From assembly GCF_029873635.1 (NCBI RefSeq), contig NC_080428.1:69771101-69835100 (forward strand): 64,000 bases of DNA, read 5' to 3'. The notes beneath the pieces are model-generated. The model was not told where the DNA came from, did no database searches, and saw only the letters and a list, made by a program, of their open reading frames with translations. Position 1 is the first letter of the stretch, and every line of letters starts with the position of its first letter. Source of the stretch: Malania oleifera (lineage: Eukaryota > Streptophyta > Magnoliopsida > Santalales > Ximeniaceae). A program made the position numbers and the translations under genes. Shown here piece after piece: positions 19,705 through 49,992 of the stretch.

Positions 19705-20160
19705 AGTCTCGTTGACGAAAGCAGGGCGCTCGTTGACGAACATCCTTCTTGGGTTCGTCGACAGGGACATTCGTCTCATCGACGAGAAGTTATCGAGAGG
19801 GCCGTTTTCAGGGCCTAAATCTCATTGACTAGGAGTAGGCGTTCTATAAGAACCCGACTTGTGAGATCTGAAATAAATAAATAAGAAAAGGGTAAAACAG
19901 TAAATTGGGTAGGCTTCGTTGACGAAGTCAGAGTTCGTAGACGAAGGCCCTTCTGCTGTTTGGTGACGAAATGCAGGTGCTCATCAATGAGGAGAAGCCA
20001 AGAGGTTTCGAGAAATCTGGAAATCTCAGGCTCGTCAATGAGGCCACCGCTTCGTCGACGAACTCCCTTCGTTGACTCGTCGACGAACTCACTTTGTTGA
20101 CTCGTCAACGAAGACGACGCCTCGTCGACGAAGTTGGCCGAGTCAAAGGTGCTATAAATA
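19705..20160 (+). promoter_or_regulatory. Palindrome array and TATA box in the U3 of element B
   Basis: At least ten copies of a 10-12 bp palindrome with core TCGTCGACGA and C/T or G/A variants (such as TCGTTGACGA and TCGTCAACGA) lie between 19705 and 20132. TATAAATA at 20153-20160 follows about 20 bp later. Equivalent arrays precede the TATA box in elements A, C, E and F. Confidence 0.75.
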
Positions 20161-20242
20161 TCCATTGGACTGCTTCTAAGCTAAGTTATCAAGTTTTCTC
20201 TCTTTCTCTCTCTCTCTCTCTCTAAGAACTCGAAACTCTCTC

Positions 20243-22511
20243 TGTAACGCCCCAAACCCTTAAACCCGGGTCCGGCTCGTTATACCTGATAAAATCCCTG
20301 ATAATCCATAATCCATAATATATGCAGCGGAAATATAATCATAATCTCCGTATAACATAATACCAAAGTTTACTAATTCTAACTACCAACCATAATAAAT
20401 TAATCATCCACCAGTATTCAAATATATACATGTCTCCAAAACATTATCCACTAATACCAGTATATTTCACAACTATCCTTTCATAACTGAGTTAAAACAT
20501 AAAATATAAAATATAAAATATACATATCAGAATTAACATAAAAATATACCCTTTTTCTTATATCTTCAAAAAATGTTATAAAATCTCGAGCTCTCAAAGC
20601 TCGATCCTGAGAAATCCTGAAAAAAAAATGAATTCATATTCGGGTGAGACACATCTCAGTAAGGGAAGAAATAATATATTAAACTCAGAGTGTGACTATC
20701 ATGAGATTATACATGACATATTATTTAACATTTGAAAATCGTTAACATAATTTTTTGAAATCATTCCCTGAACCTAATCAATCACATGCAAATATTTAAC
20801 CCACGAGATTACCCGAGGATAGGGGTGATTACCTGCCCATACAAGTAGCACCCATCTGCTCTGATACCTAGACAACCCAGAGGTCATAGTTAAAGCGTAC
20901 CAAGGCACTCACCTTACTCAGTAAGCCCTCAAGTGATGAATTAATCTCGTACTCACGCATTCAACAATAGTTTACTAGCAAAGGCCCTAAGGATAGGGAA
21001 TTCTACCTGCCCATACAAGTAGGTTCCCTCTGCCCTAGTGCGTTATACAGCTACTGCCACATCTGAAGCTACTAGTGCACTCGCCTTACTCAGCAAGCAC
21101 TCAGGCGAAAGGTACGCCTTGCCCAATCGTAACATGTTCTACATACATACATACTTCTAATATCATAATACATCATTCTTTTCTGTCATTATACATTCAT
21201 GCACATTCATTCCTGTTCATAACTTAACTTTGCATTTCATTTCACTTTAAGTGACTCTTTCTCATTTACATCATTTACCTTTGTCATTTCATTTCATTGT
21301 CATTTCATTGCATAACATTTCATTTCATTACTTCGTACTACAGCTAGTCTTTAGCCATCATCAGTTAGTCTACGTAGAAATGTGCTAGATCTGCTAACAT
21401 AGCTCCTTTTAGCTGTCATCAGTTAGTCTACACAGAAGTGTGCTAGATCTGCTAACATGGCTATCTTTCAGCTGTCTTACATTTACATGGTTGCATTTAA
21501 CATACACAGGCAATATTGTCCATATCATATTTTATTTTCATTGTTTTACTTACTTAGTCTGCATCTCATACATTTAACATATATTTGCACAGAATCTCAT
21601 GCCACACAATTTAGTAATAAAATTCATACACTGCCTGTAAAATAAGCCAACCAACATTTAATGTTTCATTTCTTACTTAATTATCCTGAAAAAATTTCCC
21701 ACTTTCATCAGTTCATTTTTGCATATATATATATCTAATAAACAACCCTAAACTCGAAAAAAAATATAATTTAAACAGTTGGCATTTTACCCATACTGAA
21801 ACATATACACGTACATATAACACAATTTATTTTTCCATTAAATTCATAAAAATTCTAATTTAATATATATTTTTTCCCTTACCTGGTTTCTTGAACTACG
21901 CCAACAGAGACTCCGAAAAATACCTGCGGCGCTCACCCGGACCCTAAATCAAAAATTCCTAACTCCAATAAATTATTTCTGAATAAAATATTATTTAAAT
22001 ATTTCCTAGGGCTATAATTCCTAAATAAATAAATATACCCTTAAATTTAGCCAAATTGTCAAATTTCCCAAATCCCACTCTCGCTTTGGAGTAGGGCTTA
22101 GAAAACTTCAACTGAAAAATTACCAACTCCAAAATGATGACAACGACGATTAGGACCCCGTGGTGGTGCCTGATCGTCGATTTAACAGCAAATTTAACCA
22201 AAAATTGAGAAATTGGGGAAAAATTATATTTTCCTAGGAGTAGTGCCTAAGTCGTTCCCATGACAAATCTGCTCCAATAGAAATGTCGACAGGGGAACTA
22301 GGATTCCAATGGCACCTTCTGTTTCCCGATCCGTCACAAACTCACCGAGTAATTGAGAGAAAGAGAGAAGCGGAGACGAAGGAGTGGCTTCGCGTACTGA
22401 ACGCAGGAAAGTTTGCAGGGGGGTGCCTGACATCTTCTCTGTTCTTCTTCCTTTTTCTTTCTTCTTCTTCTTTCTTCTTTCTTCTTTTTCTTCTTTTACT
22501 TATACTTATCT

Positions 22512-22574
<63 letters not shown>

Positions 22575-22856
22575 GTATATATATATTTATATATTATATT
22601 AACTTACTATATAAGTGTATATATGTATATTTCTCTTATTTCAATTAGTTTTTTTTTTTAAATCCAATGTAAAAATATTTAATTTAATAACAAATTATTT
22701 AATTATTTAATTCATCTTATTTAATTTAATTTCTTTAATTTTAATTTAATTTTTTTTTCTTTTCCCCCGCCATTCCTTTTATTTAATTATCTGTTGTTTT
22801 ATTTATTTATTTTTTTCTAAATTATTTTAATCCTTTTAAATTTTTGGGTCTTTACA
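20243..22856 (-). mobile_element. Solo LTR D inside the LTR of element B
   Basis: It runs TGTAACGCCCC to GGTCTTTACA (2,614 bp), with a 5-bp duplication CTCTC on both sides, though this lies in a CT tract and so carries less weight. The GGGGCGTTACA end and the GTGAGACACATCTCAGTAAG module place it in minus orientation. It has no internal region. It carries duplicated CTGCCCATACAAGTAG modules near 20850 and 21010, a TA microsatellite (22514-22575), and no TCGTCGACGA array. Confidence 0.75.
22514..22575. repeat. TA microsatellite
   Basis: About 60 bp of near-perfect (TA)n within solo LTR D. Reading frames with long YIYIYI runs across it are repeat artefacts. Confidence 0.9.
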
Positions 22857-23522
22857 CTCTCTCTTTCTCTAGATTTTTTTGTCGTACGTTGCTAGAATCA
22901 ACGATTTGATGTTACTACGAGAATCAGGGAAGGATTCTTTTCAAAATTTGTGGAACGGATCTTCGTTTCGAGAATTTTCAGGATTTGACCCAAAATCGAG
23001 GTAAGGCTCATTTTTCATTTCCGTTTTGGTAGTTCTGTAGGGAATGGAATTGTAAGTATGTTTTGTACTGTGATTTATAGGTTTTGGCAACTCGGTTCGC
23101 TGTTTAGGAGCCATAGAGTTTGGGTTTGGATTTTTGGGAAAATGTAAGGGGATTCTATTTATATCAGTTATTTTCGAAATCGGATTCGATAGAATTGTGG
23201 TTCACGGTTCTGTGTGTGTTTTGACTACTTAGTTGGAGAAATCTAATGGGTAAAATTATGGGATTTTCATATTACAGTTTTGGGAAAAATAGGCCATTGG
23301 GTTGCATCTCTAGTTTTGTTAGAAAACCGTGGATATATTGTGATATATATTGTGTTATGGAGATGACCGTGCTTTGACTTGTTTTGAATTGTATTTTGAA
23401 AATCATGATTGTTGAGATTACCAAATGAGTGTGGAATGACTTGTTATATGAACATGCATGAGTTGTGTTTTGATGAAATGAGATAGGAACGGGGTTCCAA
23501 ATTGTTCCAGGCTTTGATGTCC

Positions 23523-23765
23523 AGCTTTTGCCGAAGAATGCGTAATACCACTAGATCGACTGGTTTTTATCGAAGGGTGTGAAAACACCAGATCTGCATT
23601 GGTTCAACGCTGTGAGGCTTAGGCTATGTCAGGTTACCAGGGGCACCAGCTTTTGCCAAAGGGTGTGAAATACCACCAGACAGTTCGGCTTTTGCCGAAG
23701 GGTGTGAAATATCACTAGACAGTCCGACTTAGGCCAAAAGGTGTGACGACACCAGATCGTATTGC
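23523..23765 (+). repeat. 39-bp minisatellite in the element B LTR
   Basis: About five copies of a 39-bp unit with the core TTTTGCCGAAGGGTGTGAAA followed by an ACCA(C/G)(C/T)AGA block. The first two are adjacent, a gap of about 47 bp follows, then three more adjacent copies. It is specific to this LTR. The matching part of element A's LTR shows only traces of the unit. Confidence 0.75.
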
Positions 23766-24296
23766 TTTGTATCGTTGGTATACTGGAATTATTTTTGTGA
23801 AAATACTGGAACTGTATTGAACTGTGTATGTTTTATATCATGATAACACTCATATGCCACACACCGATATAACCTGATTCTTCCTTACTGAGAGGTGTCT
23901 CACCCCTATTGTACGTACATATTTTCAGGTCCTTCGAGTAACCGAAACTAGCATCCTTGTGTTGGGAGCGTAGTGGTTGGTATACTACGTGAAGTACTTC
24001 TGTAAGTACTAGGACTATATCGGGTTGTCGTTTTGGGTTTTGGCTGGCACCCGGGTTTATGTTTTGTATTATGGAGCTTAGACTCCTTCTGTATAGACTC
24101 TGGTATGGTACAATATATGTATAGAAAGAACCGCTGTGTATATGTCATGTATGTGAATGTGTATAGGGTGTACGGGAACCCCATGGGATCGGACCCTCAT
24201 TCATTATTGTATCATTGGTGTATTGTATGATACAGGGACAGGTTAGGTTACTAATTCACCCCTAGGTCCCATTATCGAGTTCGAGGCGTGACAATT

Positions 24297-24308
24297 TGGT
24301 ATCAGAGC
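24297..24308 (+). other. Primer-binding site of element B
   Basis: TGGTATCAGAGC lies three bases after the LTR end. It is the classical plant initiator-methionine tRNA primer site and fixes element B's orientation as +. Confidence 0.85.
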
Positions 24309-24514
24309 TAACTAGGTTGTTAGGTCCTGTAGACTTTGTTAGGCATAGATATGTGTAAATACCAGAGTATAGGAGGTAGGAAATGGGTAGAGTAGGTCGA
24401 GAGTTGTTTTGTTGCTAGATAGGGACTCGTTGGCTGTGTTATATGTTTTTCCTAGAATGACAATTTTAGTAAAATCATGGTAAACCATTGATGATTTTCG
24501 TGTCGGTGTGATAG

Positions 24515-26204
24515 TGTCACGCCCCGAACCCCGAAATGGGACCCAGGGGTGAAAAAGTAACCTAACCTGTCCCTGTATCATACAAATCATCCACAGATAC
24601 AGAACAAAGAATGAGGGTCCGACCCCGTGGGGTTCCCTGGCACCCTAAACACATCAAATCACAAACATGTACGCAGCAAAAAAAGTATTTCTATATCAAC
24701 ATATGCAGTACCATACTAGATTCTATACATGAGCCAAACACAGCTCTATCAAAACGTACAATGGGTGCCCAAATACAACCCAAAATGGCAACCCAACAAA
24801 ACTACAGTCCTAGCACTTACCCAAGCGCTAACGCAGTACACCGACCATTACGCTCCCTACATTAGGACGCTAGTTCCGGTTACTCGAAGGACCTATAAAA
24901 ATGTACGTACAGCAGGGGTGAGACACCTCTCAGTAAGGAAGAATACAAGTTATATCGGTGTGTGGCATTTGAATGTTATCATGACACAACATACATGCAG
25001 TTGAATGGAATCCAGTACTAATTCACACAGTGCGTTCACGCACACATACGGCAACCATTTATACGCAGCCTTGTCACAATACACACACATGATCAGTAAC
25101 GCTCAGTGTCGTCACACTCTTCAGCCCGAAGCCGGCCCGCGATATACTGTGTTGGCCCTTAGCCAACCCGCGAACACGGTGCCACCGGCACATGGCTAGT
25201 CCCCCGACTCCCATGGCATCGTACCTGGAATCAATTCGGAACCGCGTTACTACTAGCATTTCAACATATCACACACACATGCATGCTCATATAACCAAAC
25301 AAACCACACTCATTTGGTAATCTAAATCATGGTTTTCCAAACAAATACAGTTTAAACAAAGTCAAGGCACGACCATCCTAATATCACAGTATAAATCACA
25401 CATATACTTGGTTTTCAACAAAACTCGGGATTCATCCCGTCGCCCCCTTTTCTTCCAAAACTGTAATAATGAAAAACCTATAGTTTTTCCCGTTAGATCC
25501 CCCCAAATGAGTAGCCAAAACACACGCAGGACCGTGGACCACAGTTCCACCGAGTCCAATTTCAAAAACAACCAATATAAACATAGTTCCCCTTACCTTA
25601 ACCCCATATAACAAAACCCGAACTCCAAGGCTCCTAAACAGCGAACCGAGTTCCAAAACCTACAAATCACAGTACAGAAAATACTCACAAGACCATCCTC
25701 TACAAAACTACCAGATCATAAATGGAAATCAAGCCTTATCTCCATTTTTCGCCAAAACCCGAAAACCTCCGAAACGAGATTCCGATCCATAGAAGTTGTA
25801 GAGAATCCTTCCACGATCCTCGTGGTAACTTCCGTTTCACGATTCTATCAAAGATCGGCGAAGAAATCTAGAGAGAGAGAGAGTAAGGAAAGTTTAGAGA
25901 GAGAGAGAGATGAGATTGAAGTAACTTAGTGATTAAGAAATGAAAATTTCCATTTATAGACCTTTGACTCGGCCCAATTTCATCGACGAAATGGTGTCTT
26001 CGTCGACAAAATATCGGGAATTTCGTTGACGAAATGGTGCCTTCGTCGACGAACCCTGATATTTCCAACTTCCGCCTCTCGGCTTCTCTTCATCGACGAA
26101 CTTCTGAATTTTGTTGATGAAAAGCCTTCTACCTTCGTCGACGAATTTTGGCTTCGTCGACGAAATCTGCAAAATTCCAATTTCTCATGGTTCGGGTTCT
26201 TACA
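24515..26204 (-). repeat. Element A 3' LTR
   Basis: On + it runs TGTCACGCCCCG to GGTTCTTACA (1,690 bp). A purine-rich tract on the minus strand (26205-26218, read TAAGGATGGGAGAT) adjoins its inner edge. It holds the GTGAGACACCTCTCAGTAAG module (24920-24939), a TATA box read on - (25968-25963), and the palindrome array (25979-26165). Confidence 0.85.
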
Positions 26205-26473
26205 ATCTCCCATCCTTACAAAAATTTCGTCCTCGAAATTTGCCATCTCTCATTCATAAAATCATACATACAATCGAACACATAGACACAACTCAAGAGT
26301 GACCTGACGATCATCACAGCGCAGTCCCATCATACACATACACATACATACCCTCACTTATGGCGGAGGAATATCGTGGTTACATATACAACGGTCTCAG
26401 GAGTTCACAATACACACACACTCTCGATGACTAACCACCTATCCCAACCCACAGTAGGATTATGTACAAGTGC

Positions 26474-29400
26474 TCAAAACAATTGTGGATACTTCCGGCG
26501 TATTTTCGTTTCTAGTTCCCAAGAAGCTTCCTCAACCTCGTGGTTTCGCCACAATACCTTCACTAATGGTATCTCTCTGGTACGAAGCTTCTGAACTTTA
26601 CGGTCCAGAACCTGAACAGGTATCTCCTCATACGCTAAAGTATCCCCAATTTCCAACTCATCATAACTAATAACATGTGAAGGATCCAACACGTACCTCC
26701 TCAACATGGAGACGTGAAACACATCATGGACCCTCGAAAGTGCTGGAGGTAATGCAACTCTATAGGCTACCAGACTCACTCGTTCAAGTACCTTAAATGG
26801 TCTAATATACCTCGGGCTCAACTTTCCCTTTCTGTCGAATCTCATCACCCCTTTCATCAGAGCAATTCGCAGAAATACCTTACCTCCCACTTCAAACTCT
26901 AACTCACGGCGACGAACATCTGCATAACTCTTCTGCCGACTCTGAGCTGATCTAATCCTCTCCCGGATCAAACCCACATTCTCAGACTCCTTCTGCACAA
27001 GTTTAGATCCTAACACCTGACGTTCACCAACCTCATCCCAATTCAAAAGCGATCGACACCTCCAACCATACAAAGCCTCGAACGGTGTCATCCTTATACT
27101 AGACTGAAAGCTGTTGTTATAAGCGAACTCCACAAGTGGCATAAACTGTATCCAGCTACCATCGAAGTCTAACACATAAGCTCGCAACATATCTTCTAAT
27201 ATCTGTATCGTCCTCTCCGACTGTCCATTAGTTTGGGGGTGGAATGTTGTACTAAAAGTAAACTTCGTTCCCAATGCCTCCTACAAGCTTGTCTAGAATC
27301 GAGAAGTAAACCTTGGATCTCGATCTGACACAATGGACACCGGTACTCCGTGCATTCTCACAATCTCATGCACATACAATTCTGCTAGCCTACTCAAAGG
27401 ATAGCTAACTCTCATCGGTATGAAATGAGCAGATTTCGTCAATCTATTCACGATCACCCAAATAGCATTCTGCCCGTGAAGCGCTGGCGGCAATCCGGTT
27501 ACAAAATCCATGGAAATATGCTCCCATTTCCACACCGGAATATACAAAGGCTGCAACGGCCCTGCCGGCCTCTGATGTTTAGCTTTCACCTGCTGAGACG
27601 TCAGACACTACTCCACGAATTGAGCAATTTGCCTCTTTATACCAGACCACCAAAAGGTCTCACGCAAGTCCCGATACATCTTCATACTACCAGGATGTAC
27701 CGTCAACATAGAACGATGCGCCTCCTCTAGAATCGTCCTTTTGATATCATCATCGTTCGGAACACACAATCTGGTCCCAAACCTCAGTACACCTCCCTCA
27801 GAAATGTTAAACTTCATAGCCAGTCCCTGCTATACCTTTTCCCTAACCTCTGCCAACTCTGCATCACTAGCCTGCGCGGCTTTTATGCGCTCAAACAAAG
27901 TTGATTGGACCACCAAACCAGCAAGATAAGCCTGATGATCACCAACCACCAACTCTATACTTGAGCTTTCCAAATCTCATCTAATATGACACTGAGTTAC
28001 AACCGCAGATACAACTGTAGGCTCTAACTTCTGACTCAACGCATCAGCTACCACATTAGCCTTCCTCGGGTGATAACTGATTGTGCAATCGTAGTCCTTA
28101 ATCAACTCTAGCCACCGCCTCTGCCTCATGTTCAACTCCTTCTACGTAAAGAAATACATAAGGCTCTTATGGTCAGTGAAGATCTCACACCGCACCCCGT
28201 ACAGATAGTGTCGCTAGATCTTCAGTACATACACAACAGCAGCCAACTCTAAATCATGCATAGGGTAGTTCTTCTCATATTCTTTCAGTTTCCTAGAAGC
28301 ATATGCCACTACCTTACCCTGCTACATAAACACACATCCCAGGCCTTTCAGAGACGCGTCACTATAAATCACAAACCCACCATCCCCCGAAGGAATGGTC
28401 AACACCGGAGCAGTAACCAACCGGAGCTTCAACTCCTGAAAGCACTGCTCGCAATCACTAGTCCACTCAAACTGTACTCCCTTCATGGTCAATCATGTCA
28501 GAGGTCCAGACAATTTAGAGAAACCTTCTACGAACCGACGATAGTAACCTGCCAGTCCTAGAAAACTCTGAACCTCCTACACATTCTTCGGCCTTACCCA
28601 GTCGACCACAGCTTCAATCTTACTAGAATCAACTGATATTCCATCCCCAGTAACCACATGGCCTAAGAACGCAATCTGACTCAACCAAAATTCACATTTC
28701 TTCAATTTAGCATACAACTTCTTCTCCCTTAAAATTTGTAACACTAACCTCAAATGTTCCACGTGCTCTTTCGTACTCCTTGAGTATACCAGAATGTCGT
28801 CAATAAATACCACCATGAACCGATCCAAGTACTCATGGAAAACCCTGTTGATCAGATCCATGAACACCGTCAGAGCATTTGTCAATCCAAAAGGCATGAC
28901 TAAGAACTCGTAGTGGCCATATCTGGTTCGGAAAGCTGTCTTCGCTACATCTTCCGCTCTAACTCTCACCTGATGATATCCTAACCGCAAGTCGACCTTC
29001 GAAAAGACCTGCGTCCCTTGCAACTGGTCAAAGAGATCATCTATACGAGGTAAAGGATAGCGATTCTTCATAGTTACCTTGTTGATCTCATGGTAATCCA
29101 TGCACATCTGCATCGACCCATCCTTCTTCTTCACAAACAGTACTGGAGCTCCCCAAGGTGAAACACTAGGTCGAATGAATCCCCTGTCCAATAATTCCTG
29201 CAACTGCTCCTTCAACTCCTGAAGTTCTGCTGGAGCCATCCGGTACGGAGCTTTAGAGATCGATGCCTTACTGGGCAGCAACTCTATCGCAAACTCCACC
29301 TCACGATCCGGAGGTAAACCGGGTAAATCATCTGGAAACACATCTGAGAATTCGCTGACTACCCGATTGTCCTCGAGTCTCAACTCATCCCACGGTGGTT

Positions 29401-30967
29401 CCTTTATACAAGCTAGGTACCCCTGACATCCGTCTAAGAGTAGCCTTTTCGCCTGTAGTGCTGACAGAATTTGTGGCACTGAACGCACACACGATCCCAC
29501 GAATTTGTACTCCTGCTCCCCAGGAGGTCTAAAAACTACCACCTTCCTACGACAATCGATTACCGCATAACTGGAGAACAACCAATCCATCCCCATAATG
29601 ATATCGAACCCTGACATGTCGTATACCACAAGATTCGTCGGTAGCAGCTTCCCCTGAATTTTCACTGGGCAGTCTACCAACATCTTCCTATAGAAAGATA
29701 AGCTCCCAGATGGCGTAGTAATAGATAACACCTCCTTTATATCTCGGGTCTCAACCCCACACCGTCCCACAAAACTCACAGATACAAAGGAATGGGTTGC
29801 ACTCGAATCAAACAATACAGAAGCTTTAATCGAAAGCAATAATAAGGTATCTGTCACCATGTTACCTACATGCTTAGCGTCTGCTGGAGTAAGAGAGTAT
29901 ACTCTGGCTGGGGCTGTATTCGTTTGAGTGGTTCCCCAAGGTATCTAGTTGCTCCCTCGGTCCCCACTAACTGTAGGCATGTCTCGCCTTGATGCTCGAC
30001 AATCATGAGACTTGTGGCCTGTCTGGCCATAGTTGTAGCAACTGCCTCCAAATGATTGGCACTCACCATCGTGCCATTTGTGGCATCTGGCACAACATCC
30101 ACGAGTCTGGCTCCCCTGAGAATCCTGATGCTCGGTATTCTGGCAGTAACCTGAGCCCTTGCTCATCTTCTTCCACGATCCCTGACGAGATCCTGTCTGA
30201 GAACCAGAAGGTATTGTCCTCTTCCTCGATTCCTGATCCACCTCATCCTCTTGAATACCAATCTCGATCACCGTGGCCTTATCCACCAATACCGAGAACT
30301 TGCGGATCTGAAGCATACCCACCAGTCTGCGAATATCCTTCCTCAAACCCTTCTCAAACCTCTGAGTCTTCTCATACTTGCTCGAGATCATACATGGTGC
30401 AAAACGGGATAGCTCTATGTATCGAGCTGCATACCCCTGCACCGTCATACCTCCCTGCATCAGTGCAGAAAACTCATCTGCCTTCGCATCACATACGGAA
30501 GCCGGGAAGTATCTATCAAAGAACACCTCCTTGAAATGGCTCCACATCATCTCCTCAGGATCGGCTCTCTGCTTCTCCAGCAGACTCACCGCAGTCCACC
30601 ATCGACCCGCCTCCCCAGACAGCTGGAAGGTGGCATAAAGGACTCGCTGCCTATCCATGCAGTGCAGGACCTCTAAGATCCTCTCAGTCTTCTCTACCCA
30701 ATCTTCTTCTGTTGTCGGGTTAGGTCCCCTAGAGAACGTCGGAGGATGCATGCGTGTGAACCTTTCAATGGTGCAGCCCGTAGCAGTAGGAGAGCGCTCG
30801 CATCTCCCCACACTCTGCCTGATCTCCCATAATACCTGCCTCGTTAAGCCCCGAGGCACATAAGGAGACTCATCACTCACAGTCTCCTCGGAGCCACTTC
30901 TCAGGTTATTATCCTTAGGCTCCTTGCTGCAACACAATAGGAATCTATCAGTATCCTTACAACACAT
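26474..30967 (-). mobile_element. Element A gag-pol region
   Basis: Gag (about 30967-29945) has a CCHC-type zinc knuckle (CYNYGQTGHKSHDC). It is followed by an aspartic protease segment ([10 protein letters not shown]), reverse transcriptase with FIDDILVYS, RNase H with a [13 protein letters not shown]-like block, and integrase with HPQTNGQSERTIQ. The C-terminal segment PLVKVLWRNHEVEEASWE is typical of chromovirus tails. Gag and pol lie in consecutive frames on the minus strand. As a whole it is broken and non-functional. Confidence 0.85.
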
Positions 30968-31234
30968 ATAGTTAACACAATGATCTACACTAATCGTGTT
31001 AACTACTTCCTACCAGGTCTAGGTTTGTCCTATCACACCGACATGAAAGTCATCAATGATCTGCCCTGCTTTTACTGGAATCGTCATCCCAAGAAAAACA
31101 CGGAATACCGTCGACAAATCTCGGTCTGGTAACCGAACAACCCTCAACCAACTCTACCCATATTCACATCATATACTCTGGTATGTACTCATAACTAAGC
31201 CTAACCAAGTCTATAAGATCTAGTAACCTGGTTA

Positions 31235-31246
31235 GCTTTGGTACCA
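31235..31246 (-). other. Primer-binding site of element A
   Basis: On the minus strand it reads TGGTACCAAAGC, three bases from the 5' LTR edge. It is an imperfect match to the initiator-methionine tRNA site. Confidence 0.7.
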
Positions 31247-31249
31247 AGC

Positions 31250-32866
31250 TGTCACGCCCCGAACCCCGAAATGGGACCTAGGGGTGAAAAAGTAACCTAA
31301 CTTGTCCCTATATCATAAACATGTATGCAGCGGAAAAAGTGTTTCTATATCAACATATGCAGTACCATAACAGAGTCTATACATGAGCCAAACATAGCTC
31401 TATCAAAACGTACAATGGGTGCCCAAATACAACCCAAAATGGCAACCCAACAAAACTACAGTCCTAGCACTTACCCAAGTGCTAACGCAGTACATCGGCC
31501 ACTACGCTCCCTGCACCAGGACGCTAGTTTCGGTTACTCGAAGAACCTGTAAAAATCTACGTACAGCAGGGGTGAGACACCTCTCAGTAAGGAAGAACAC
31601 AGGTTATATCGGTGTGTGGCATTTGAGTGTTATCATGACACAACATACATGCAGTTGTATAGAATCCAGTACTAATTCACATAATGCGTTCACGCACATA
31701 TACGACGGCTATTTATACACAGCCTCGTCACAATACACACACATGATCAATAACCCTCAGTGTCATCACACTCTTCGGCCCGAAGCTGGCCCACGACATA
31801 CGGAGTTGGCCCGTAGCAAACCCGCGAACACGGCGCCACCGGCACATGGCTAGTCCCCAACTCCCATGGCATCGTACCTGGTATCATTTCAGAATCACGT
31901 TCCTACTAGCATTTCAACATATCACACACACATGCATGCTCATATAACCAAACAAACCGCACTCATTTGGTAATCTAAATCATGGTTTTCCAAAAAAATA
32001 CAGTTTAAACAAAGTCAAGGCACAACCATTCCAATATCACAGTATAAATCACATATATACTCGGTTTTCAACAAAACCCGGGATTCATCCCGTCGCCCCC
32101 TTTTTTTCCAAAACTGTAATAATGAAAAACCCATAGTTTTCCCGTTAGATCCCCCCAATTGAGTAGCTAAAACACACACAGGACCGTGGACCACAGTTCC
32201 ACCGAGTCCAATTTCAAAAATAACCAATATAAACATAGTTCCCCTTACCTTAACCCCATATAACAAAACTCGAACTCCAAGGCTCCTAAACAGTGAACCG
32301 AGTTCCAAAACCTACAAATCACAGTACAGAAAATACTCACAAGACCATCCTCTACAAAACTACCGATCAGAAATGGAAATCAAGTCTTACCTCGATTTTT
32401 TGCCAAAACCCAAAAACCTCCAAAACGAGATTCCAATCCATAGAAGTTGTAGAGAATCCTTCCACGATCCTCGGGTAACTTCCGTTTCCCGAGTCTATCA
32501 ACGATCAGCGAAGAAATCTAGAGAGAGAGAGAGTAGGGAAAGTTTAGAGAGAGAGAGAGAGAGAGAGAGAGATGAGATTGAAGTAACTTAGTGATTAAGA
32601 AATGAAATTTTCCTTTTATAGACCTTTGACCCGGCCCAATTTCGTTGACGAAATGGTGTCTTCATCAACGAAATATTGGGAATTTCGTCGATGAAATGGT
32701 GCCTTCGTCGACGAACCCTGATATTTCCAACTTCCGCCTCTCGACTTCTCTTCGTTGACGAACCTGTGAATTTCGTCGACGAAAAGCCTTCTACCTTTGT
32801 TGATGAATTCTGGCTTCGTCGGCGAAATCTGTAGAATTCCAATTTCTCACGATTTGGGTTCTTATA
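31250..32866 (-). repeat. Element A 5' LTR
   Basis: It is about 1,617 bp, homologous end to end with 24515-26204 apart from an internal gap of about 90 bp near its left edge. TATAAAAGG (minus, 32620-32612) lies about 20 bp downstream of the palindrome array. A GA tract (32519-32570) lies downstream of the TATA box. Confidence 0.85.
32641..32826 (-). promoter_or_regulatory. Palindrome array in the U3 of element A
   Basis: Eight sites resembling TTCGTCGACGAA start at 32641, 32661, 32684, 32704, 32751, 32772, 32796 and 32815. Spacings are 20, 23, 20, 47, 21, 24 and 19 bp, close to two helical turns or a multiple. The differences between sites are mostly C to T or G to A, as expected from decay of methylated CpG. 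Confidence 0.75.
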
Positions 32867-32978
32867 AATAGAACAGACCTGGACCCGTGAGATGGATAGT
32901 TAGCATGATTAGATGTAAATGATTGCATTAACTGTATGTGATGTAGGAGTGCTAATAGATTCCTATCATATTTTCATA

Positions 32979-33125
32979 ATGGAGCCCAAGGATAACAACT
33001 TGGAAAGTGGCTCCAAAGAGACTGCGAGTGACGAGTTTCCTTTTGTCTCGAGGGTTGACGAGACAGGTTATGCGGGAGATCGAGTGAAATGTTAGGAGAC
33101 GTGAACGCTCTCCTATTGTTGCGAG
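32979..33125 (+). mobile_element. Element B gag, first part
   Basis: It begins MEPKDNNLESGSKETASDEF, clearly homologous to the start of element A gag, and is cut off by the insertion of element C at 33131. The rest lies to the right of C. Confidence 0.8.
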
Positions 33126-33130
33126 GTGTA

Positions 33131-34418: not shown

Positions 34419-34467
<49 letters not shown>

Positions 34468-35113
34468 TGATAACGTAAGTAAATCTCCTAGCATAACATA
34501 TTTCCCTTACCTAGTTTCTGAAAAGCCCCAACAATACTTTAGCCCTACACCCGCAGAGTTCTTCACTCAACACCCTGAAAACGACATCCACGAGAACAAA
34601 ACATCAGTATTTTCCTACATACAATATTCTCTATAACTGTAAGGAAAGCATATTCTAAATAAAACACTTTACTCTGAATTTGGGATGAATTTCAAATCAC
34701 CTCCACCAACGATCTGCTTAAGTAGACTTGCAGAGAACTTCCCAAGGAGCATCATGGTGGCTTCAGATCGTCAATCCAGTGAGAGACGAGTCTGGATCAA
34801 AGAGAGAAAGGGAGAGGGGCATAGAGAGAGAAATAGAGGGTTTCCTGCGCAAGTTTCGTATGAAAAATCTAGGTTTTCACTGTTTACAGGCTCGGATTCG
34901 CCGATGAGACACGTCATCTCGTCGACGAGTCCTTAAGGAATTTCGTTGATGAACTTCCTCCCTCATCGATGAATTTCATATTGCCCCAAAAACCTCTCTC
35001 GGTATTTTCTCGTCGACGAAACTTGTCCACGTCGACGAGCTCCTCTTATATCCTTGTCGACGAATCCCCTGTGTTCGTCAATGAGAACCCTTCTAATTTT
35101 TTGGGTTATTACA
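33131..35113 (-). repeat. Element C 3' LTR
   Basis: TGTAACGACCTC to GGGTTATTACA, 1,983 bp. It contains a GTGAGACGACGCTCAGTAAG module (33473-33492), CTGTAT repeats (34010-34036), a TA microsatellite (34422-34460) and a palindrome array (about 34895-35095). Confidence 0.9.
34422..34460. repeat. TA microsatellite in the element C 3' LTR
   Basis: About 39 bp of (TA)n. The other LTR of C carries two longer TA tracts (about 41675-41705 and 41897-41937), showing length change after insertion. Confidence 0.9.
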
Positions 35114-35357
35114 TTCCCCCCTCCTTATAAAATTTTGTCCTAGAAATTTTCTATCTGGATTGAACACCATTATACACTCTATCATCTCGTAAAGGTAAAG
35201 GGTCTACTTATTTTATTACTTACCCTCACTTATGGCGGAGGAATACCATGGTTACAATCTAAGTTCTAGGAGATTATACATATGAAACTAAAAGACTACC
35301 CACTAACTAACTCAATACATGTACCTGCAAAAGAAAATTTACCTAATTATTTATACT

Positions 35358-40201: not shown

Positions 40202-40522
40202 CTTGCAAATATATAGAACACCATTTCAAAATCCTATTTCCCATACATACTCAACTTATTCCATTTAATTAAAACTTCAAATCCTCTATTAACCATCTCT
40301 CATAATCCTAGCCCTAAAATAGCAACCCAAACACACGACTCGTTGATAGTTTACTGTGGCTTTCCTGAAATCGTCACCCTAGGAAAAACACAGAAACCAC
40401 CACAAAAATCTTATATCTAGACCACAGAACAAACCTCAAATTTTTTTCCTATATTCTGGTATTGTTTTCTCGCTACAATCTAGAGTCTGCAGAACCTAGC
40501 AACCTAGGCTCTAATACTAAAC

Positions 40523-41673
40523 TGTAACGACCTCAAAATTAAATCATTTTTTTTTACATATGAACTATTCTGATACCCCCTGCTCTGAAACTCAGGCCAC
40601 GGAAGGCACTGGGGTAATCTTGTAAACAATAATCCTACCTACACAGCGGAAACATAAATTACACAATCCCATATACCATACAATACCAGAACTCAGTATT
40701 TCCATCACATAGTCACAAAATACATCTCTCATAGTTAAATCTATCTCAAAAACTCAAGACTCTACACCATCTTACCCTATAACAAGGGTAACCAAGAAAT
40801 CTCTATCCGCGAGCCTGATCTGCTCGCCTAACTGGCTCACCTAAAAAATGTTAGAATAATAGGGTGAGACAACGCTCAGTAAGTGAAAATATACTATTAC
40901 TAGTGTGTGGCGACTAAGTTACATATACTTTAAATAACATCTGAACTGTAATAAAGGATAAATCTGTAAAGCATATCTTACATTTTTCGCAGTTTAAAAC
41001 ATAACTGTATCATCTGAGTTTTATACTTTTCATACTGCTAATATCATACTATATTTATCAAATACTGTAAAACTGTATATATATACATAACTGTGCTTTA
41101 TCCCTAGAACTTTGTATGTCATGATTTGACCCCTCATGACAGGGTTGTGCAGCCCGTAGGCGGGATTTCACTTGGTCGGCCCTCCAGAAAATTCACTATA
41201 CTTTACACTACCTCAGTCTGACCAAACTGCATACTTTCCTAGGTGCGGGACTGGCTGCTACCTCGTCAAACTGACCTTGTCAACCCAGAAAACTAGGGAG
41301 CTGCATACTTTCTGAGCACAGTTGACGGTACCCCCACACTATTTGAGATATGTGACTGCACTCTATCTGTATTAGCACGGTACCGTGCTCTGTATTTTGT
41401 ATCTGTCTGTAATCTTTTCAATGGGATCTGATACTATATATATACATATATACTCTTTACTGTTTTCATCATGTTTCCAAAATAACCATAACACTATAAC
41501 TCTGTACTGTAAATACTGTAATATCTGTAGCATTTTGATGCTAAAACTGTATCATCTGTCTGTATACTCTGTCTGTATAATCTATTTGTATACTCTGAGT
41601 GTTATGGAATTTTGGAAAACATAGCTTTCTATATACACTGCATATACTGATCTAAATAAACATTTGTATATTG

Positions 41674-41708
<35 letters not shown>

Positions 41709-41896
41709 TATGTAATCATTTGAATAAAAATTGTATATGTATACACATTCTATCTGTATAAAATCTGTAAATATCTCAATATATCTGTATAACTTGATAT
41801 ACTGAAAAACTGTGTAAAACTCCATATCAGATAATATCTACTTAGGCCACACATACTTTAAAAATTCGTATTTTATATAATAACTGGTATATATGC

Positions 41897-41928
<32 letters not shown>

Positions 41929-42591
41929 ATATATATAAAATTTTTGATAACGTAAGTAAATCTCCTAACATAGCATATTTCCCTTACATAGTTTCTGAAA
42001 AGCCCTAACAATACTCTAGCCCTACATTTGCAGAGTTCTTAACTCAACACCCTGAAAACGACATCCCTCAGAACAAAACATCAGTATTTTCCTGTATACA
42101 ACATTTTCTATAACTGCAGGGAAAACATATTCTAAATAAAACAGCTTACTCTAAATTTGGGATGAATTTCAAACCACCTCTACCAACGATCTGCTTCGAC
42201 AGACTTGCGGAGAGCTTCCCCAGGAGCATCGTGGTGGCTTCAGATCATCGATCTGGTGAGAGATGGGGCTGGGATCGAAGAGAGAAGTGGAGAGGGGCAT
42301 AGAGAGAGAAATAGAGGGTTTCCTGCGCAAGTTTCGTATGAAAAATTTGGGTTTTCACTGTTTATAGGTCTGGATTTGTCAACGAGACACGTTATCTCGT
42401 TAATGAGTCCTTAAGGAATTTCGTTGATGAACTTCCTCCCTCGTCGACGAATTTCAGATTGCCCCAAAAACCTCTTTCAGTATTTTTTCTTCGACGAAAC
42501 CTGTCTTCGTTGACGAGCTCCTCTTATATCCTCGTCGATGAATCCCATGTGTTCGTCGACGAGAACCCTTCTAATTTTTTGGGTTATTACA
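40523..42591 (-). repeat. Element C 5' LTR
   Basis: About 2,069 bp, homologous to 33131-35113. Read on minus it has a TATA box (CCTATAAA, 42367-42361) just downstream of the palindrome array (42376-42570). It ends next to the primer site. Confidence 0.9.
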
Positions 42592-42596
42592 GTGTA

Positions 42597-45500
42597 CCAT
42601 CGAGAGGTTCAAATGTATGCACCCTTCGACGTTTTTAGGAGGACCCGACCTGATGATAGCGGAGGATTGGGTCGATAAGATTAAGAGGATTCTAGAGGTT
42701 CTACACTACACAGATAAGCAGAGATTCCTCTACGCTACCTTCTAGTCGTTTGGAGAGGCGGGCCGATGGTGGACTGCAGTGAGTCTGCTAAAGAAGCAAA
42801 GAGCCGGTCCTACAGAGATGACATAGAGCCGATTCAAGGAAATGTTCTTTGAGAGATACTTCTCGGCCTTCACACGCGATGCTAAGGCGGATGAGTTCTC
42901 TCCTCTAACACGGGGAGATATGACAGTGTAGGGTTATGCTACTTGGTATATAGAGCTATCCTGTTTTGCGCCGTGTTTGATTTCGAACGAGTACGAGAAG
43001 ACTCGAAGGTTCAAAAAGGGCTTAAGGAAGGATATCTGCAGATTAGTGGGTATGCTTCAGATCCATGAGTTTTCGGTTTTGGTGGATAAGGCCACTGTGA
43101 TTGAGATGGACATCCAGGAGTATGAGGTGGATCAGGAACCGAGAAAGAGGCTAGTACCTTATAGTTCTTAGTTTGGATCTCACTAGGGAGCATGGAAGAA
43201 GAAGAACAAGAGCTCAGGTTATCGTCACAATACCGAGTGTCAGGGTTCTCAGGTGAATCAGTCGCGTGATCGTTGTATTAGGTGCCACAAATGACATGAT
43301 GGTGAATGCCAGCTATTTGGGGGTAACTACTACAACTGTGGCCAGTCAGGTCACATGGCTCGAGATTGTCACGCACCAAAGAGGGGTACGCATGCTTCGA
43401 ATCAGAATCAGGGGAGTAATCAGGTGTCCTAAGGAACTTATCAGGCGAACACAACTCTGGAAAGGGTATACTCGCTTACTTCAGTGGATGCTGAGCAAGC
43501 GGGGAATGTGGTGATAGGTACTATGATGTTGCTTTTAAATAGTGTTGTGATTTTATTTGATTCGAGTGCGACCCATTCCTTTATATTTGCTAACTTTGTA
43601 AAACTATGTGGGGTTGAGACCTGATTCATGAATGAAGAATTGTCTGTCGTTGCACCATATGGGAGTGTATCATTCTATAAGAGGATGTTAGAAGACTGCC
43701 TAGTGGAGAATCTTGAGGTATACGACATGTCTGGGTTCGATGTCATATTGGGGATGGATTGGTTATCCTCCAGTTATGCTGTGATCAATTGTCATGGATA
43801 GGTGGTAGTATTCATACCTCATAGGAAGCAGGAGTATGAGTTTATAGGATCGTGTGTGCATTCGACGCCACGGGTTCTATCGGCATTACAGGTGAGGAAG
43901 TTACTCTTGGACGGATGTTAGGGGTACCTAGCTTGCATGAGAGAACCACCGTGGGATGAATTGAAGCTTGAGGATATTCGAGTGGTTAACGAGTTCCCAG
44001 ATGTGTTTCCCAAAGACTTACCCGGTTTACCTTCGGACCGTGAGGTGGAGTTTGTGATAAAGTTGCTGCCTAGCAAGGCACCGATCTTCAAAGCTCCGTA
44101 CCGGATGGATCTAGCAGAACTTTAGAAGTTGAAGGAGCAGTTGCATGAATTACTAGACAAGGGCTTTATTCGACTAAGTATTTCGCCCTGGGGAGCTCCA
44201 GTTTTGTTTATGAAGAAGAAGGACGGGTCGATGCATATGTGCATTGATTACCATGAGATCAACAAGGTGACTGTGAAGAATAGTTACCAGTTGCCTCATG
44301 TCGATGATCTCTTTGACCAGCTGCAGGGGACACAGGTCTTTTCAAAGATCTACCTACGGTCAGGGTATCATCAGGTGAGGGTTCGATCTGAGGATGTAGC
44401 GAAGACTGCTTTTCGAATCAGATACGACCACTATGAGTTTTTAGTCATGACTTTTGGGTTGACGAATGATCTAGCAGTGTTCATGGATCTGATGAATGGG
44501 ATTTTCTATGAGTACTTGGATCAGTTTGTAGTGGTATTTATTGATGACATTCTAGTATACTTGAGGAGTTCGGAAGAGCATGAATACCATATGAGGTTGG
44601 TGCTATAGATTCTACGGGAGAGGAAGTTGTATGCCAAGTTGAAGAAGTGTGAGTTCTGGTTGAATCAGGTTGCATTTTTAGGCCATGTGGTGTCTAAAGG
44701 CGGTATCTCAGTTGATCCTAGCAAGATCAAAGTTGTGGTCGACTGGGTGAGACCGAAGAGTGCGCAAGAGGTTCGGAGTTTCCTAGGACTGGCGGGTTAT
44801 TATCGTTGGTTCGTGGAGGGATTCTCTAAATTTTTTGGACCTCTAACACAATTGACCAGGAAGGGGGTAAAATTTGACTGGACCGAGGATTGCGAACAGT
44901 GTTTCCAGGAGCTGAAACAGCGATTAGTTACTGCTCGGATTTTGGTCATTCCTTTGGGGGCTGACGATTTTGTGATCTATAGCTATGCATCTCTGAAGGG
45001 GTTGGGAAGTGTGCTTATGCAACAGGATAAGGTAATAGCTTATGCTTCTCGGTAACTCAAGGAATACGAAAAGAATTACCCTACGCATGATTTGGAATTG
45101 GTTGTTGTAGTTTATGCACTGAAGATCTGGTGACACTACCTGTATGGTGTTCCATGTGAGATTTTCACTAATCACAAAATTCTTAGGTACTTTTTCACGC
45201 AGAAGGAGTTGAACATGAGTCAGCGGAGGTGGCTTGAGCTGATCAAGGACTATGATTGCACCATCAGCTATCACCCGGGAAAAGCCAATGTGGTGGCTGA
45301 TGCGTTGAGTCGGAAGTCAGAGCATGTGATAGTATCAACAGTGGTAGCTCAACATCATATTAGACGGGATTTGGAAAGCCTTGGTATAGAGTTGGTGTTC
45401 GGTGATCATCAAGCTTTCATTACTAGTTTGGTGATTTAGACGACTTTATTTAAGCGTATTAAAGTCACACAGGCTAGTAATGCAGAGTTAACCGAGATTG

Positions 45501-45665
45501 TGGAGAAGGTGCAGCAGGGGTTGGCAACGGATTTTAACATCTCTGAATGAGGTGTGTTGAGGTTTGGAACCAGGCTGTGTGTTCCAAACGACGAGAAGAT
45601 CAGAAGGATGATTCTGGAGGAAGCGCATCGTTCGTTGTATACAGTACATCCTGGTAGTACAAAGA
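42597..45665 (+). mobile_element. Element B gag-pol, second part
   Basis: Gag resumes right after the GTGTA duplication (CTIERF, about 42596 on). A zinc knuckle (CQLFGGNYYNCGQSGHMA-like, near 43310-43370) is followed by protease, reverse transcriptase (FIDDILVY near 44540), RNase H with [16 protein letters not shown] (about 45270-45320) and the first part of integrase. It stops at 45665 where LTR E begins. Highly similar to element A and broken many times. Confidence 0.85.
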
Positions 45666-47094
45666 TGTAACGCCCTAGACCCGCCAAGTGGGGCCCGTGG
45701 TGTTATGAGACTATACATACGTCTCTGATACCATTCATGCAATAGAACTAACTAAACAATTCCAAATAAATACCAGAGTACTATATATATTTACATATGC
45801 AAACCCATAAAAAGGTACAACCATATTCACCATATTACATAACTAGGACAAAATATTAAACATAAAGTTGTACACATATCCGTTCTTTTATCCACCCCCA
45901 AAATCTAACCCCGCCCTGGAACTTGCTAAGCTCGATCACCTGAAGGACCTGAAAATATTAATAAATCGTCGGGGTGAGACACCTCTCAGTAAGGAAGAAA
46001 TAAGTTACAACAGTGTGTGGCTAAAGTGTAACAACCCTGGTAATTTTTAAATAATTTAAGATAATAAAGAAGATGGAAAGGGAAGGAAGAACAAATTCGA
46101 AAAGGCGAAAAGGTGGCAGCAATCGTTCATCGACGAATGGATTGGTCTCGTCAACGAATGTTCTTCTGAGCTCGTCGACGAGGGTATGTGTCTCGTTGAC
46201 TAGGAAATACCACAAGGGGTTTTTATAGACTGAAATTCATCGACGAGTTGGCTGTCTCGTCGACGAACTGTGTACAAGACTCGTCAACGAATTGACATGT
46301 CTCGTCGACAAATCCTTGGGTATAAAAGAGAACTTTTCTTTCATTTTAGCATAGAATTCTTGCATGTTCACCTTCTCTCTCTAGAAATTCAGCACTACCA
46401 CCTTCTCTCTTCGATTTCGAGTCGAATTTTTGCTAGTTCGACAATTTGAGGCCACCACGACACTCCTGGAAGAGTTCTTTACAAATTTGCTAGAGTGGAT
46501 GATTGGTGAGACTAGTTAGGAATTCATTCCAGATTTAAGGTAAGACTTTTTATGTAAAATTTGGCTTTACCCTAGTTGTAGGAAATATTATATGCGAAGA
46601 AATATTGAAGTTTAGTTCTAGGAGATGTGGTTTTCAGGGCATTGAACGGGGAACCTTGTGGGTGTAAGATTGGTTATTTTAGGAGGTTTTTCAGGAATTA
46701 GGTAAGGGGAAATATTTTATAATAGCTTTTTCATAATTATAAACGACTAGTTTCGAGTATGAATTCTTATATACATACAGGTATAATTTTCTAAACTTTG
46801 CTGGTATGGAAAATAATGTTTTCGGTAGATAAATTATATTAGGAAAATTCGTGTGGTTGAAACCATTTTGATCATTAAATGATTGTTGAGCTTAGTCAAA
46901 TGAGGAAATTGTTGAGATTGTGAATGTCATTTGACTGAAATTCTTGTATGGCTGAATACATTGATTGGATTGTGAACATTGTTTGGTTGAAAATATTGGA
47001 TGGTTGAGTATACTGTGGTATTTGTGTGGACATAATTGATTGGTCAGGTTATTGATTGATCTGTGGTGTGGTTCATGTAAATTATGACATAATG

Positions 47095-47246
47095 TTGGCA
47101 GTGGTATGAGGAGGTTGTTATATCGTACATGGTATAACCGTCATATAACGTTGGCAGTGGTATGAGGAGGTCGTTATATGGACGTTTATACTAGGAGATA
47201 AACATTAGCAGTGGTATGAGGAGGTTGTTTACCTATTTATCATGAA
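47095..47246 (+). repeat. Triplicated block in LTR F
   Basis: GGCAGTGGTATGAGGAGGTT-like blocks occur three times at about 60-bp spacing, each ending in GTTATAT or GTTTACC. LTR E holds the same trio in reverse (48855-48990), so the triplication predates the split of E and F. Confidence 0.7.
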
Positions 47247-47479
47247 CGAGGTGTTTGTTTTGTAATTTGTGTGGTTTGAGTAGTCCTGTGTGGACATTTA
47301 TACTATGTTTGATTAGTCTTGTGTGGACATTGATGCTGCGTGATTTGATTAGTCCTGTGTGGACATTGATGCTGTGTGATTTGATCCTATGTAGATTGAT
47401 TATGTGAAGAAATTTTGTGAAGAGATTGTGTTGGCTGTGTATGAATGTTAATTAATTAAGTATTTAGGGTAAAGTAGAT

Positions 47480-47702
47480 TACAACCCGAGGGCTTGCTGA
47501 GAAAGGCAAGTACGCTGGTAATTAATTGTGGGTACCAGAGTAGAGGGAAGTCACTTGTATGGGCGGGTGATCTTCCCTATTCTCGGTGACTTTACCTGAA
47601 TACACAACTCGAGGGTTTACTGAAAAAGGTGAGTGCCCTGGTGTTAGCACTAGAGCAGAGGGAACCCACTTGTATGGGTAGGTGGATTTCCCTATTCTCG
47701 GA
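47480..47702 (+). repeat. Tandem module in LTR F
   Basis: A module of about 100-110 bp occurs twice: CGAGGG(C/T)TT(G/A)CTGA(G/A)AAAGG, then a CTGGT block, then AGAG(T/C)AGAGGGAA, then CACTTGTATGGG, then CCCTATTCTCGG. The same pair occurs in reverse in LTRs D and E. Confidence 0.75.
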
Positions 47703-49992
47703 AACTAACATTAAAATACTGATTGGTTATGGGTATGTGATTGGATGATAAGGACGTTGATCTTGTGCGATTATAGGCATGTTATCTGGCTTCTTGTGAA
47801 TTGTGTGTACACCTGAGATGGATATTTTAAATTGTATTATAAACACTTCAGCCACACACTATTATAAATTATTTCTTCCTTAATGAGAGGTGTCTCTCCC
47901 TGTCATATGTTAAATCTTTTCAGGTTACCCAGGTGATCGAGCTAAGATAGCTCCAGGGCGGGGTAGTTTTGTGAGTTAAATATAGTAGATCGGATATGTA
48001 TTTAGTTTATGTTCAATATATATATTAATTTTGGATTTATAATATTAAGGATTAGGTTGTAATTTTTATGGATCAATGTATGTAAGTATAGTACTCTGCT
48101 ATTTTCTGTTGAAGACATTTATTATTTCCATTGTGTGAATGGTATTAGAGACGCGTGTCGGTCTCTTAATGCACCGGGCCCTGCGTGGAGGGTCCGTGGC
48201 GTTACATGAAGTGTTTAATATATAATTACAAAGTATACATACATTTGTGTTTCACTATCAATAGCAGTTGAGAAAAATAGATCTAAAATCACATCATTAT
48301 CGACTTCTCTATTACCCAATCACATACACACATACATAATTACTTTTACTGATAATTCTCGAGAATAGGGAAGTCTACCCAACCATACAAGTAGCTCTCT
48401 TATGTTCTAATACTAAAATCAGGGCACTCACCTTCCTCAGTAAGTCCTCAGGATATGTATCTAGGTAAAGTCTTCGAGGTTAAGGAAGCTTACCTGCCCA
48501 TACAAGTAGCTTCCCTCAACTCTAGTATCAACAAAAAATTACAAGAGCACTTGCCTTCCTCAGCAAGTCCTCGGTGGAAAGTTCTACTTTACCATAAATA
48601 CCTATGCAATTAAAGTTACATGCAACCAATGCTAATCACTTCGCAAAGTTCCACATGTACACACATATCACAATCAATCCACACAGGATATACGCATACC
48701 TCATTCACACCCACACAGGGTCCATATCCACACAGAATACAACGTCCCCACACAGGACTCTAATCCATATAAAATACACATCCACACAGGACTATCAATC
48801 ACACAGGTTACAACACATACCACTCTGTTCATGGTAAATAGGAAAAACAAACTCCTCATACCACTTTCAATGTTTTACCCCCTAATATAAACGCTCATAT
48901 AACGACCTCCTCATACCACTGCCAACATTATATGACGGTTATATCAGGTATGATATAACGATCTCCTCATACCACTACCAACGTTATATCGTAATTTACA
49001 TGAACCATAAAACAGTACACATCCAGTACAGGTAAACACATCATTACATTCCCATTCACAGTATTTATTTATCCAAACAGCATCACAACCAAACAAAATT
49101 CGCAATCCAAACAGTAACCACAACTGAACAACAAATGAAATCAAGCAGTACTCACAATCATTTAATTATCAAAGTTATTTTCATGCCACATGGTTTTTTT
49201 TCCTAATATAATATATAATCAAAAAAAGAATTTCCAATGCCTGCACTGTTCAGGAAATTATACCTAAATTTATAGAATTTATACTCAAATTTACCAGTTT
49301 AAAATTAATAAAAACTATTACAACGTATTTCCCCTTACCTACTCCTCAAGTTCTTGCCTAAATCGAACGAAAAACGAGACCCTGTAATCCAAAATTCCCA
49401 ACTCACTCAAATCTCAGAAAAATTTTCATTTAATACTCCTAGGCTCCATATAATTATATTTAACAAGAAAACTCCAAAATATGTCACTTACCCTGATTTT
49501 GGGATGGTGCTCTAAAATCCCAAATCAACGATCTGCTTCTACAGCTTTGCAGAGAACAATCTTATGAACCTCGTGGTGGTTTCAGATCATCAAACCGGGC
49601 TGAATCCAAGCCGGATTCGAATAGAGAAGGCAGAGGGGCCGTTTTTAGAGAGAGAAAATGAGAGGAGTGATTTCTTCACTAAAAAATGAAAGAAATCGCT
49701 ATTTATAGGCAGAGACTCATTGACGAGACAAGTGGATTCGTCGACGATCCCATAAAGAACATTCGTCAACAAGACTGCGAGTTCATCGATGAGTTTCAGA
49801 ATATCTCAAACCCTCTCGGTAAATCCTCGTTGACGAGACATGTGCCCTCATCAACAGGCCAAGGAAGAATGTTCGTTGACGAGGCCTTGCTGACACTCCT
49901 TTTAAAAATTCCTTTTTCTTCTCTTCTCTCTTTCCTTTCCTTTTATTTTGTTATTTTTATTAATTAAATTTTTCGGGTCGCTACAATATATA

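Follow-up and report, generated by a model that had tools for sequence, protein, structure and literature searches.

A rigid palindrome array in front of the TATA box: a genome-wide promoter module of a Ty3/gypsy lineage in Malania oleifera

Palindrome arrays in the window

We analysed a 64-kb stretch of the Malania oleifera genome (C12:69771101-69835100; genome size 1.494 Gb), called the window in the following. It contains nested retrotransposons whose long terminal repeats (LTRs) carry arrays of the palindrome TCGTCGACGA in front of the TATA box. The arrays exist where a preliminary description of this DNA had put them: 63 matches with at most two mismatches were found in the window compared to 8.3 expected, a number that 0 of 100 shuffles attained, and 15 copies were exact. 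Each motif holds three CpG sites, not two as first reported. The arrays and the elements around them, named by letters, are the following (gap: distance between the last site and the TATA box):

19709-19785, plus strand: first half-array, four sites, of an older LTR cut at about 19844 by LTR B
19845-20243, plus strand: start of LTR B (U3 and beginning of R), opening with TATAAGAACCC at about 19845
19916-20131, plus strand: LTR B array, 7 sites (at most 2 mismatches) and further weaker ones; duplication of one 25-bp unit
20153-20159, plus strand: LTR B TATA box, 21 bp past the last site
24658-26204, minus strand: 3' LTR of element A; identity to the 5' LTR 91.8%
25980-26163, minus strand: eight-site array of the A 3' LTR; TATA start 25958, gap 21 bp
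26477-31009, minus strand: gag-pol region of element A
29948-31009, minus strand: gag of element A
28580-29944, minus strand: protease-reverse transcriptase (PR-RT) of element A
27281-28579, minus strand: RNase H-integrase stretch of element A, contains stops
26477-27280, minus strand: integrase C-terminus of element A, SH3_Tf2-1 and weak Chromo match
31312-32867, minus strand: 5' LTR of element A
32642-32825, minus strand: array of the A 5' LTR; TATA start 32620, gap 21 bp
34898-35084, minus strand: left C LTR, array of eight sites; TATA box now TGTAAA by decay (TATAAA in the partner LTR)
42376-42562, minus strand: array of the right C LTR; TATA 9 bp past the last site
46127-46311, plus strand: eight-site array of LTR F; TATA 46321, gap 9 bp
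49717-49882, minus strand: LTR E array, in which some sites are decayed; TATA 49707, gap 9 bp

Several details of the preliminary description had to be revised. The region 19705-20132, assigned there to a single array in LTR B, comprises two arrays in two nested LTRs with the boundary at about 19844/19845. The TATA box of the A 3' LTR, placed at 25968, starts at 25958 by the sequence ruler. Distances between array and TATA box do not form a continuum of 8-25 bp; they are 9 or 21 bp wherever a TATA box is recognised in the window. In at least two cases (window 19709-19845; about position 3340 of locus L006) an LTR of the TATAAGAACCC type had inserted into another LTR's promoter array or directly behind it, and a preference of such LTRs for promoter arrays is possible. 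The nested retrotransposons are flanked by ordinary plant genes: at 2607-5446 and 52773-54656 the window holds open reading frames (ORFs) for leucine-rich repeat plus protein-kinase sequences and a pentatricopeptide repeat protein with E motif.

Abundance and fixed layout

Genome-wide, TCGTCGACGA occurs 132,361 times as an exact word, compared to 1,383 times for the same word read backwards. To see how these copies are arranged we used a sample of twenty 10-kb stretches (200 kb) taken at regular places on contigs C1-C4; loci outside the window carry L numbers. The sample contained 20 clusters of at least three sites, while simulated controls gave 0.1, such that a chance origin of the arrays was rejected. 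Within the clusters lay 24 of the 26 exact copies of the sample. Array density is about one per 10 kb, which corresponds to the order of 10^5 arrays in the genome if the sample is typical. A simple microsatellite was rejected as well, since the spacers within arrays differ and only one of the 20 clusters (L018) was a TCG run and no array. Among the palindromic 10-mers of the sample, TCGTCGACGA with its 26 copies was outranked only by the AT runs ATATATATAT and TATATATATA; the other 57 palindromic 10-mers with at least three CpGs had 2 copies altogether.

The layout was derived from 24 aligned arrays. This set leaves aside the second LTR of the pairs A, C and L005, wrong-strand versions of L001-L003, L004 on both strands, the fragments at window 19709-19785 and L013:8523-8642, and L018 and L020. 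L001-L003 entered the set of 24 through a search for exact motif pairs; these three are no random picks. The module is located in the U3 of the LTR and reads, in the direction of transcription, M1-M2-M3-M4, linker, M5-M6-M7-M8 and then TATA. Considering only well-matched neighbours, the successive steps measured 19-22, 24-25, 19 or 21, 44-51 (mostly 46), 20-21, 23-25 and 19-21 bp, i.e. a shared pattern over eight sites of about 21, 25, 20, 46, 20, 24 and 21 bp. Rather than the single spacing class of 19-24 bp given before for A, short (19-22 bp) and long (23-25 bp) steps thus alternate around a mid-step of 44-51 bp. The alternation was also seen genome-wide: exact triples with a short and then a long step (either strand) numbered 2,921, those with two short steps 158, many of the latter within local duplications judging by those listed. 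These counts cover alternating and short-short triples. A search pattern built on the rigid layout gave 0 matches for the backwards-word control. The spacing in A had been described as about two helical turns; pooled successive spacings were unphased at 10.5 bp (R=0.27, n=136), such that general 10.5-bp phasing across all sites was rejected. The layout is therefore a fixed pattern rather than a simple helical repetition.

The distance to the TATA box was found to be discrete. In 18 of the 24 aligned arrays the TATA box followed the last site either at 9 bp (11 arrays) or at 19-21 bp (7 arrays). The genome scan for the motif 0-30 bp before TATA, as envisaged in the preliminary description, bore out this order: motif-N{0,30}-TATAAA was found at 11,059+9,970 places (21,029) compared to 3,304 for the opposite order. 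For the first 100 of these 21,029 places, all of which come from one end of contig C1, the gap was 9 bp in 38 cases, 11-12 bp in 11, 19-21 bp in 17, 30 bp in 24 and another value in 10, with none at 10 or 13-18 bp. The 30-bp gap is the 9-bp gap plus one 21-bp step. In the longer gap class a GGGTCAAAGG-like stretch often precedes the TATA box.

Two of the spacers contain words of their own. A CCGAGAG-like word was present in 13 of 19 linkers and in 0 of 116 other spacers, while ACGT was present in 6 of 21 last spacers and in 0 of 114 others. The M7-M8 spacer of several arrays (L005, L011, L002, L003 and window C), and this spacer only, contained ACGT-core words such as GGTGACGTGGC or GATGACGTGTC, which we take to be bZIP-like. 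W-box or ACGT words in the spacers are possible extra sites.

Carrier elements, divergence and decay

Ten elements were found in which an array-bearing LTR adjoins a gag-pol region of the same orientation: A, C, L005, L007 (two), L008, L010, L013, L017 and L023. The domains of element A (Retrotrans_gag, RVP_2, RVT_1, integrase C-terminus) follow the gypsy-type gag-pol order, and homologues of all its protein pieces were found in sample loci beside arrays. A Chromo match was obtained for element A only; at an E-value of 0.0013 it scored 19.1 bits, where the curated cut-off is 25.1. The LTRs mostly start with TGTAA.(A/G)ACCC-like words. Directly after nine LTR ends we found matches with at most two mismatches to TGGTATCAGAGC, which we take to be the word of a tRNA-Met-type primer site, among many scattered matches elsewhere. 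For Del elements a type A U5 att with GGG at -8 to -10 is described in the pertinent part of PMC4029996. This type fits A, L017 and window 24297; the type of C, L005 and L006 differs by one letter. By the features tested, the carriers, which are Ty3/gypsy elements, appear to be of a Del/Tekay-like kind. No array of their own was seen for a distant gypsy gag (L022) or for the Copia pieces of L018, L024 and the window, the LTRs of all these not being delimited.

The carriers are strongly diverged. In the integrase region, DNA identity was 63-78% for 27 of the 28 pairs that eight of them form and reached 90% for the remaining pair (A with L023), and blastn at an E-value of 1e-3 gave no alignment between the LTRs of A and C, though both carry the same module. 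Between arrays the motifs were 80% and the spacers 49% identical, where the choice of sites by likeness favours the motif. These spacers reject one recent shared duplication, a finding that had been named as one that would refute the earlier description. The earlier proposal of an old conserved promoter module is supported by a geometry and a motif common to LTRs that cannot be aligned. Alternatively, recombination, as also proposed, or gene conversion could have carried the array from one LTR family to another, in which case it would not be ancestral. The elements are nested and abundant, and their LTRs are often unalignable outside the array, as such a transfer would allow. A swap would bring the spacers along, unless it were old, whereas here the steps are the same between families with hardly similar spacers and the linker as well as the position in the LTR are kept. 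We give this alternative very little credence: recombination is not needed to account for the data, although an old event is conceivable.

Over 167 sites, 187 of 1,002 CpG letters differed from TCGTCGACGA, of which 177 were changes from C to T or G to A, in line with the variants reported before. For the non-CpG letters only 16 of 668 were changed across families, and T1, T4, A7 and A10 were 96-99% conserved. The two LTRs of single elements were compared as well (three elements pooled). Differences at CpG amounted to 34/122 in the motif and 79/292 at other CpGs, and at non-CpG letters to 7/104 in the motif and 230/3,441 in the rest. Inserted copies of the motif thus decay like the rest of the LTR in the pooled data, which argues that the word is kept across families by action on transposing copies. 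Judged by these small numbers, conservation seems to act on transposing lineages and not on inserted copies. The excess decay at CpG suggests methylation of the inserted copies, and the silencing target considered in the preliminary description is conceivable.

By composition the array is also a CpG island. In five LTRs it contained 9.1-10.9 CpG per 100 bp (observed/expected 1.62-2.06), compared to 1.7-4.0 (0.58-0.93) elsewhere in the LTR. This density, the C to T and G to A decay of the motif CpGs, and the 5' CpG islands of monocot Del LTRs (as described in parts of PMC4029996) would agree with a CpG-dense platform that serves methylation or its prevention (anti-methylation), on which methyl-binding or demethylating proteins act and density outweighs the exact word. 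The conserved T1, T4, A7 and A10 and the near absence of other CpG-rich palindromes show that the exact sequence matters, and mere density would not predict rigid spacing. We therefore regard a role chiefly as a CpG platform as quite improbable.

A putative host factor and known systems

The array is a real, genome-wide and rigid promoter module of a gypsy lineage. We interpret it as an inherited enhancer-promoter module bound by a putative dimeric factor encoded by the host, and assign this reading a probability of roughly two thirds. In a large Ty3/gypsy lineage of the Del/Tekay-like kind, the module would occupy the greater part of U3 and would have been passed on by inheritance. Each of the eight TCGTCGACGA palindromes, arranged as four close pairs around the conserved linker, would be the site of a dimer of a sequence-specific factor. 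Held at fixed distances from each other and from the TATA box, the bound factors would recruit RNA polymerase II, such that the genomic RNA starts. Lineages that keep this grammar would go on transposing, while inserted copies would then decay freely and fastest at CpG. Dyad symmetry, fixed spacing and a fixed TATA distance are what is expected from a dimeric DNA-binding factor in a promoter complex, and we infer that a binding array for a dimeric plant factor, as already considered in the preliminary description, is the best mechanism for the array. The factor is probably host-encoded, because in the internal region of element A (26205-31311) gag-pol leaves about 0.3 kb at each end with no other long ORF and hence no room for a regulator gene.

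Several observations weigh against this reading. To our knowledge no plant factor binds the 10-mer TCGTCGACGA. Motif identity is overstated, since only positions that resemble TCGTCGACGA with at most 3 mismatches were taken as sites (167 of the 192 in the model). The LTR pair of L005 taken alone behaves in the opposite way for CpG (5/30 in the motif, 36/127 in the rest), with 4/30 changes at the non-CpG motif letters. Five of the 24 arrays have no recognisable TATA box, and L013b is coupled to one only by counting a site with 6 mismatches. TATA before the motif, though six times rarer, still occurs at 1,604+1,700 places, and the pooled spacings lack the helical phasing mentioned above.

The array could act as RNA instead. 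In the genomic RNA, any two palindromes of its 3' U3 would then pair into hairpins, dimers or double-stranded RNA, the latter feeding host small RNA, an idea put forward for the palindromes of maize Sireviruses. All three arrays that were folded were more stable than shuffles (z -2.43, -6.61, -5.82), and for maize the relevant parts of PMC5311732 and PMC10760457 describe the palindrome regions of Sireviruses as hotspots of small RNA for which strong structure is predicted. These z-scores do not discriminate, since any self-complementary repeat folds well, and the three predicted folds are unlike in topology. An RNA role gives no evident reason why the steps alternate in a fixed way or why the TATA gaps are discrete, and attraction of small RNA alone would not make an element conserve the motif. 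An RNA role is thus unlikely.

A factor encoded by the transposable element (TE) itself would be a further candidate. Arrays of short motifs at high density in the non-coding DNA of one TE lineage resemble the targets of VANC, whose one-protein recognition of tandem motifs in VANDAL elements is described in part of PMC5735166, and a TE-directed anti-silencing protein might bind the present array likewise. VANDAL elements are DNA transposons with a TE-encoded protein, and copy numbers of VANC targets vary greatly among related copies. In contrast, the array here is rigid, and element A, the sole internal region examined, lacks room for an extra gene. We consider such a protein very improbable. 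Another 10-bp CpG-bearing promoter palindrome is the CGCG element TCTCGCGAGA of vertebrate CpG-island promoters, which is methyl-sensitive according to the part of PMC6192621 concerned. It acts as a single element in TATA-less promoters, and its likeness to the present array is an analogy only.

The closest known case is given by the palindromic repeated motifs (RM) in the LTRs of Sireviruses, which are Ty1/copia elements. The sections of PMC2829016 on RM report at least eight palindromes per RM-bearing element in the upper LTR half, shortly upstream of a conserved TATA box and forming a CpG island, and call them Sirevirus-specific relative to classic copia elements. Many short palindromes shortly before TATA, at least eight sites and a CpG-island-like composition are also found here, with some sites decayed. 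The RM of Vitis, CGGTCGACCG, even has the GTCGAC core in common with TCGTCGACGA. In contrast, the carriers here are Ty3/gypsy elements, and the CGG-CCG signature of 12 of the 13 RMs listed in these sections (Tnd-1 is without it) is absent from TCGTCGACGA. Furthermore, many diverged families share one word here, with its eight sites laid out in a fixed manner and with discrete gaps to TATA, while the same sections describe no such layout. For Del, the pertinent parts of PMC4029996 report islands of variable length and sequence in monocots and none in five eudicots, and 'palindrom' does not occur in the main text; in what by the features tested is the same lineage, we find a rigid palindrome array. 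New is therefore a palindrome array of this kind in the other superfamily, with another core and a stricter layout. The earlier statement that no known motif matches holds for the exact word, for which a literature text search gave no plant-retrotransposon paper, judged by title, among the matches listed. It does not hold for the kind of array, since LTR palindrome arrays before TATA were known from Sireviruses, as the cited sections document. A search for GTCGAC combined with DNA affinity purification sequencing (DAP-seq) found no paper, and one on palindromes in connection with Tekay, chromovirus or Del brought up papers on Sireviruses and on Del, in the pertinent parts of which this array is undescribed.

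Two other palindrome arrays were observed outside the window. At L016:2861-3079 a CAGACGTCTG-like array lies upstream of TATAAA, about 2.7 kb before a Copia reverse transcriptase piece (RVT_2, E-value 6e-43). A different array, YGGTCGACCR, with a TATATATA stretch downstream, lies at L021:9532-9804 and resembles a C-to-T decayed CGGTCGACCG motif of the Vitis Sirevirus. Both look like decayed motifs of the Sirevirus type, such that elements of both the copia and the gypsy kind may use parallel designs in this genome. A more far-reaching idea, which we regard as doubtful, is that Del/Tekay gypsy elements and Sireviruses independently arrived at the same CpG-palindrome array with a GTCGAC-like core, as a fixed-geometry enhanceosome for one family of dimeric host factors that binds only unmethylated DNA. 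If so, the array would be a switch that senses methylation, turning on new copies while these are unmethylated and closing once they become methylated, and 10^5 arrays would make the genomic binding landscape of the factor mostly retrotransposon.

The rigid layout is a search pattern with essentially no chance matches, which can be used for annotating and dating such LTRs. The array also makes it testable which host factor plant LTR retrotransposons need, and whether the CpG-rich palindrome design of Sireviruses is a general answer to silencing. If the array is an enhanceosome for a host factor, one regulatory grammar would have outlived its surrounding sequence across diverged retrotransposon families, and it would accompany a main repeat class of a 1.5-Gb genome.

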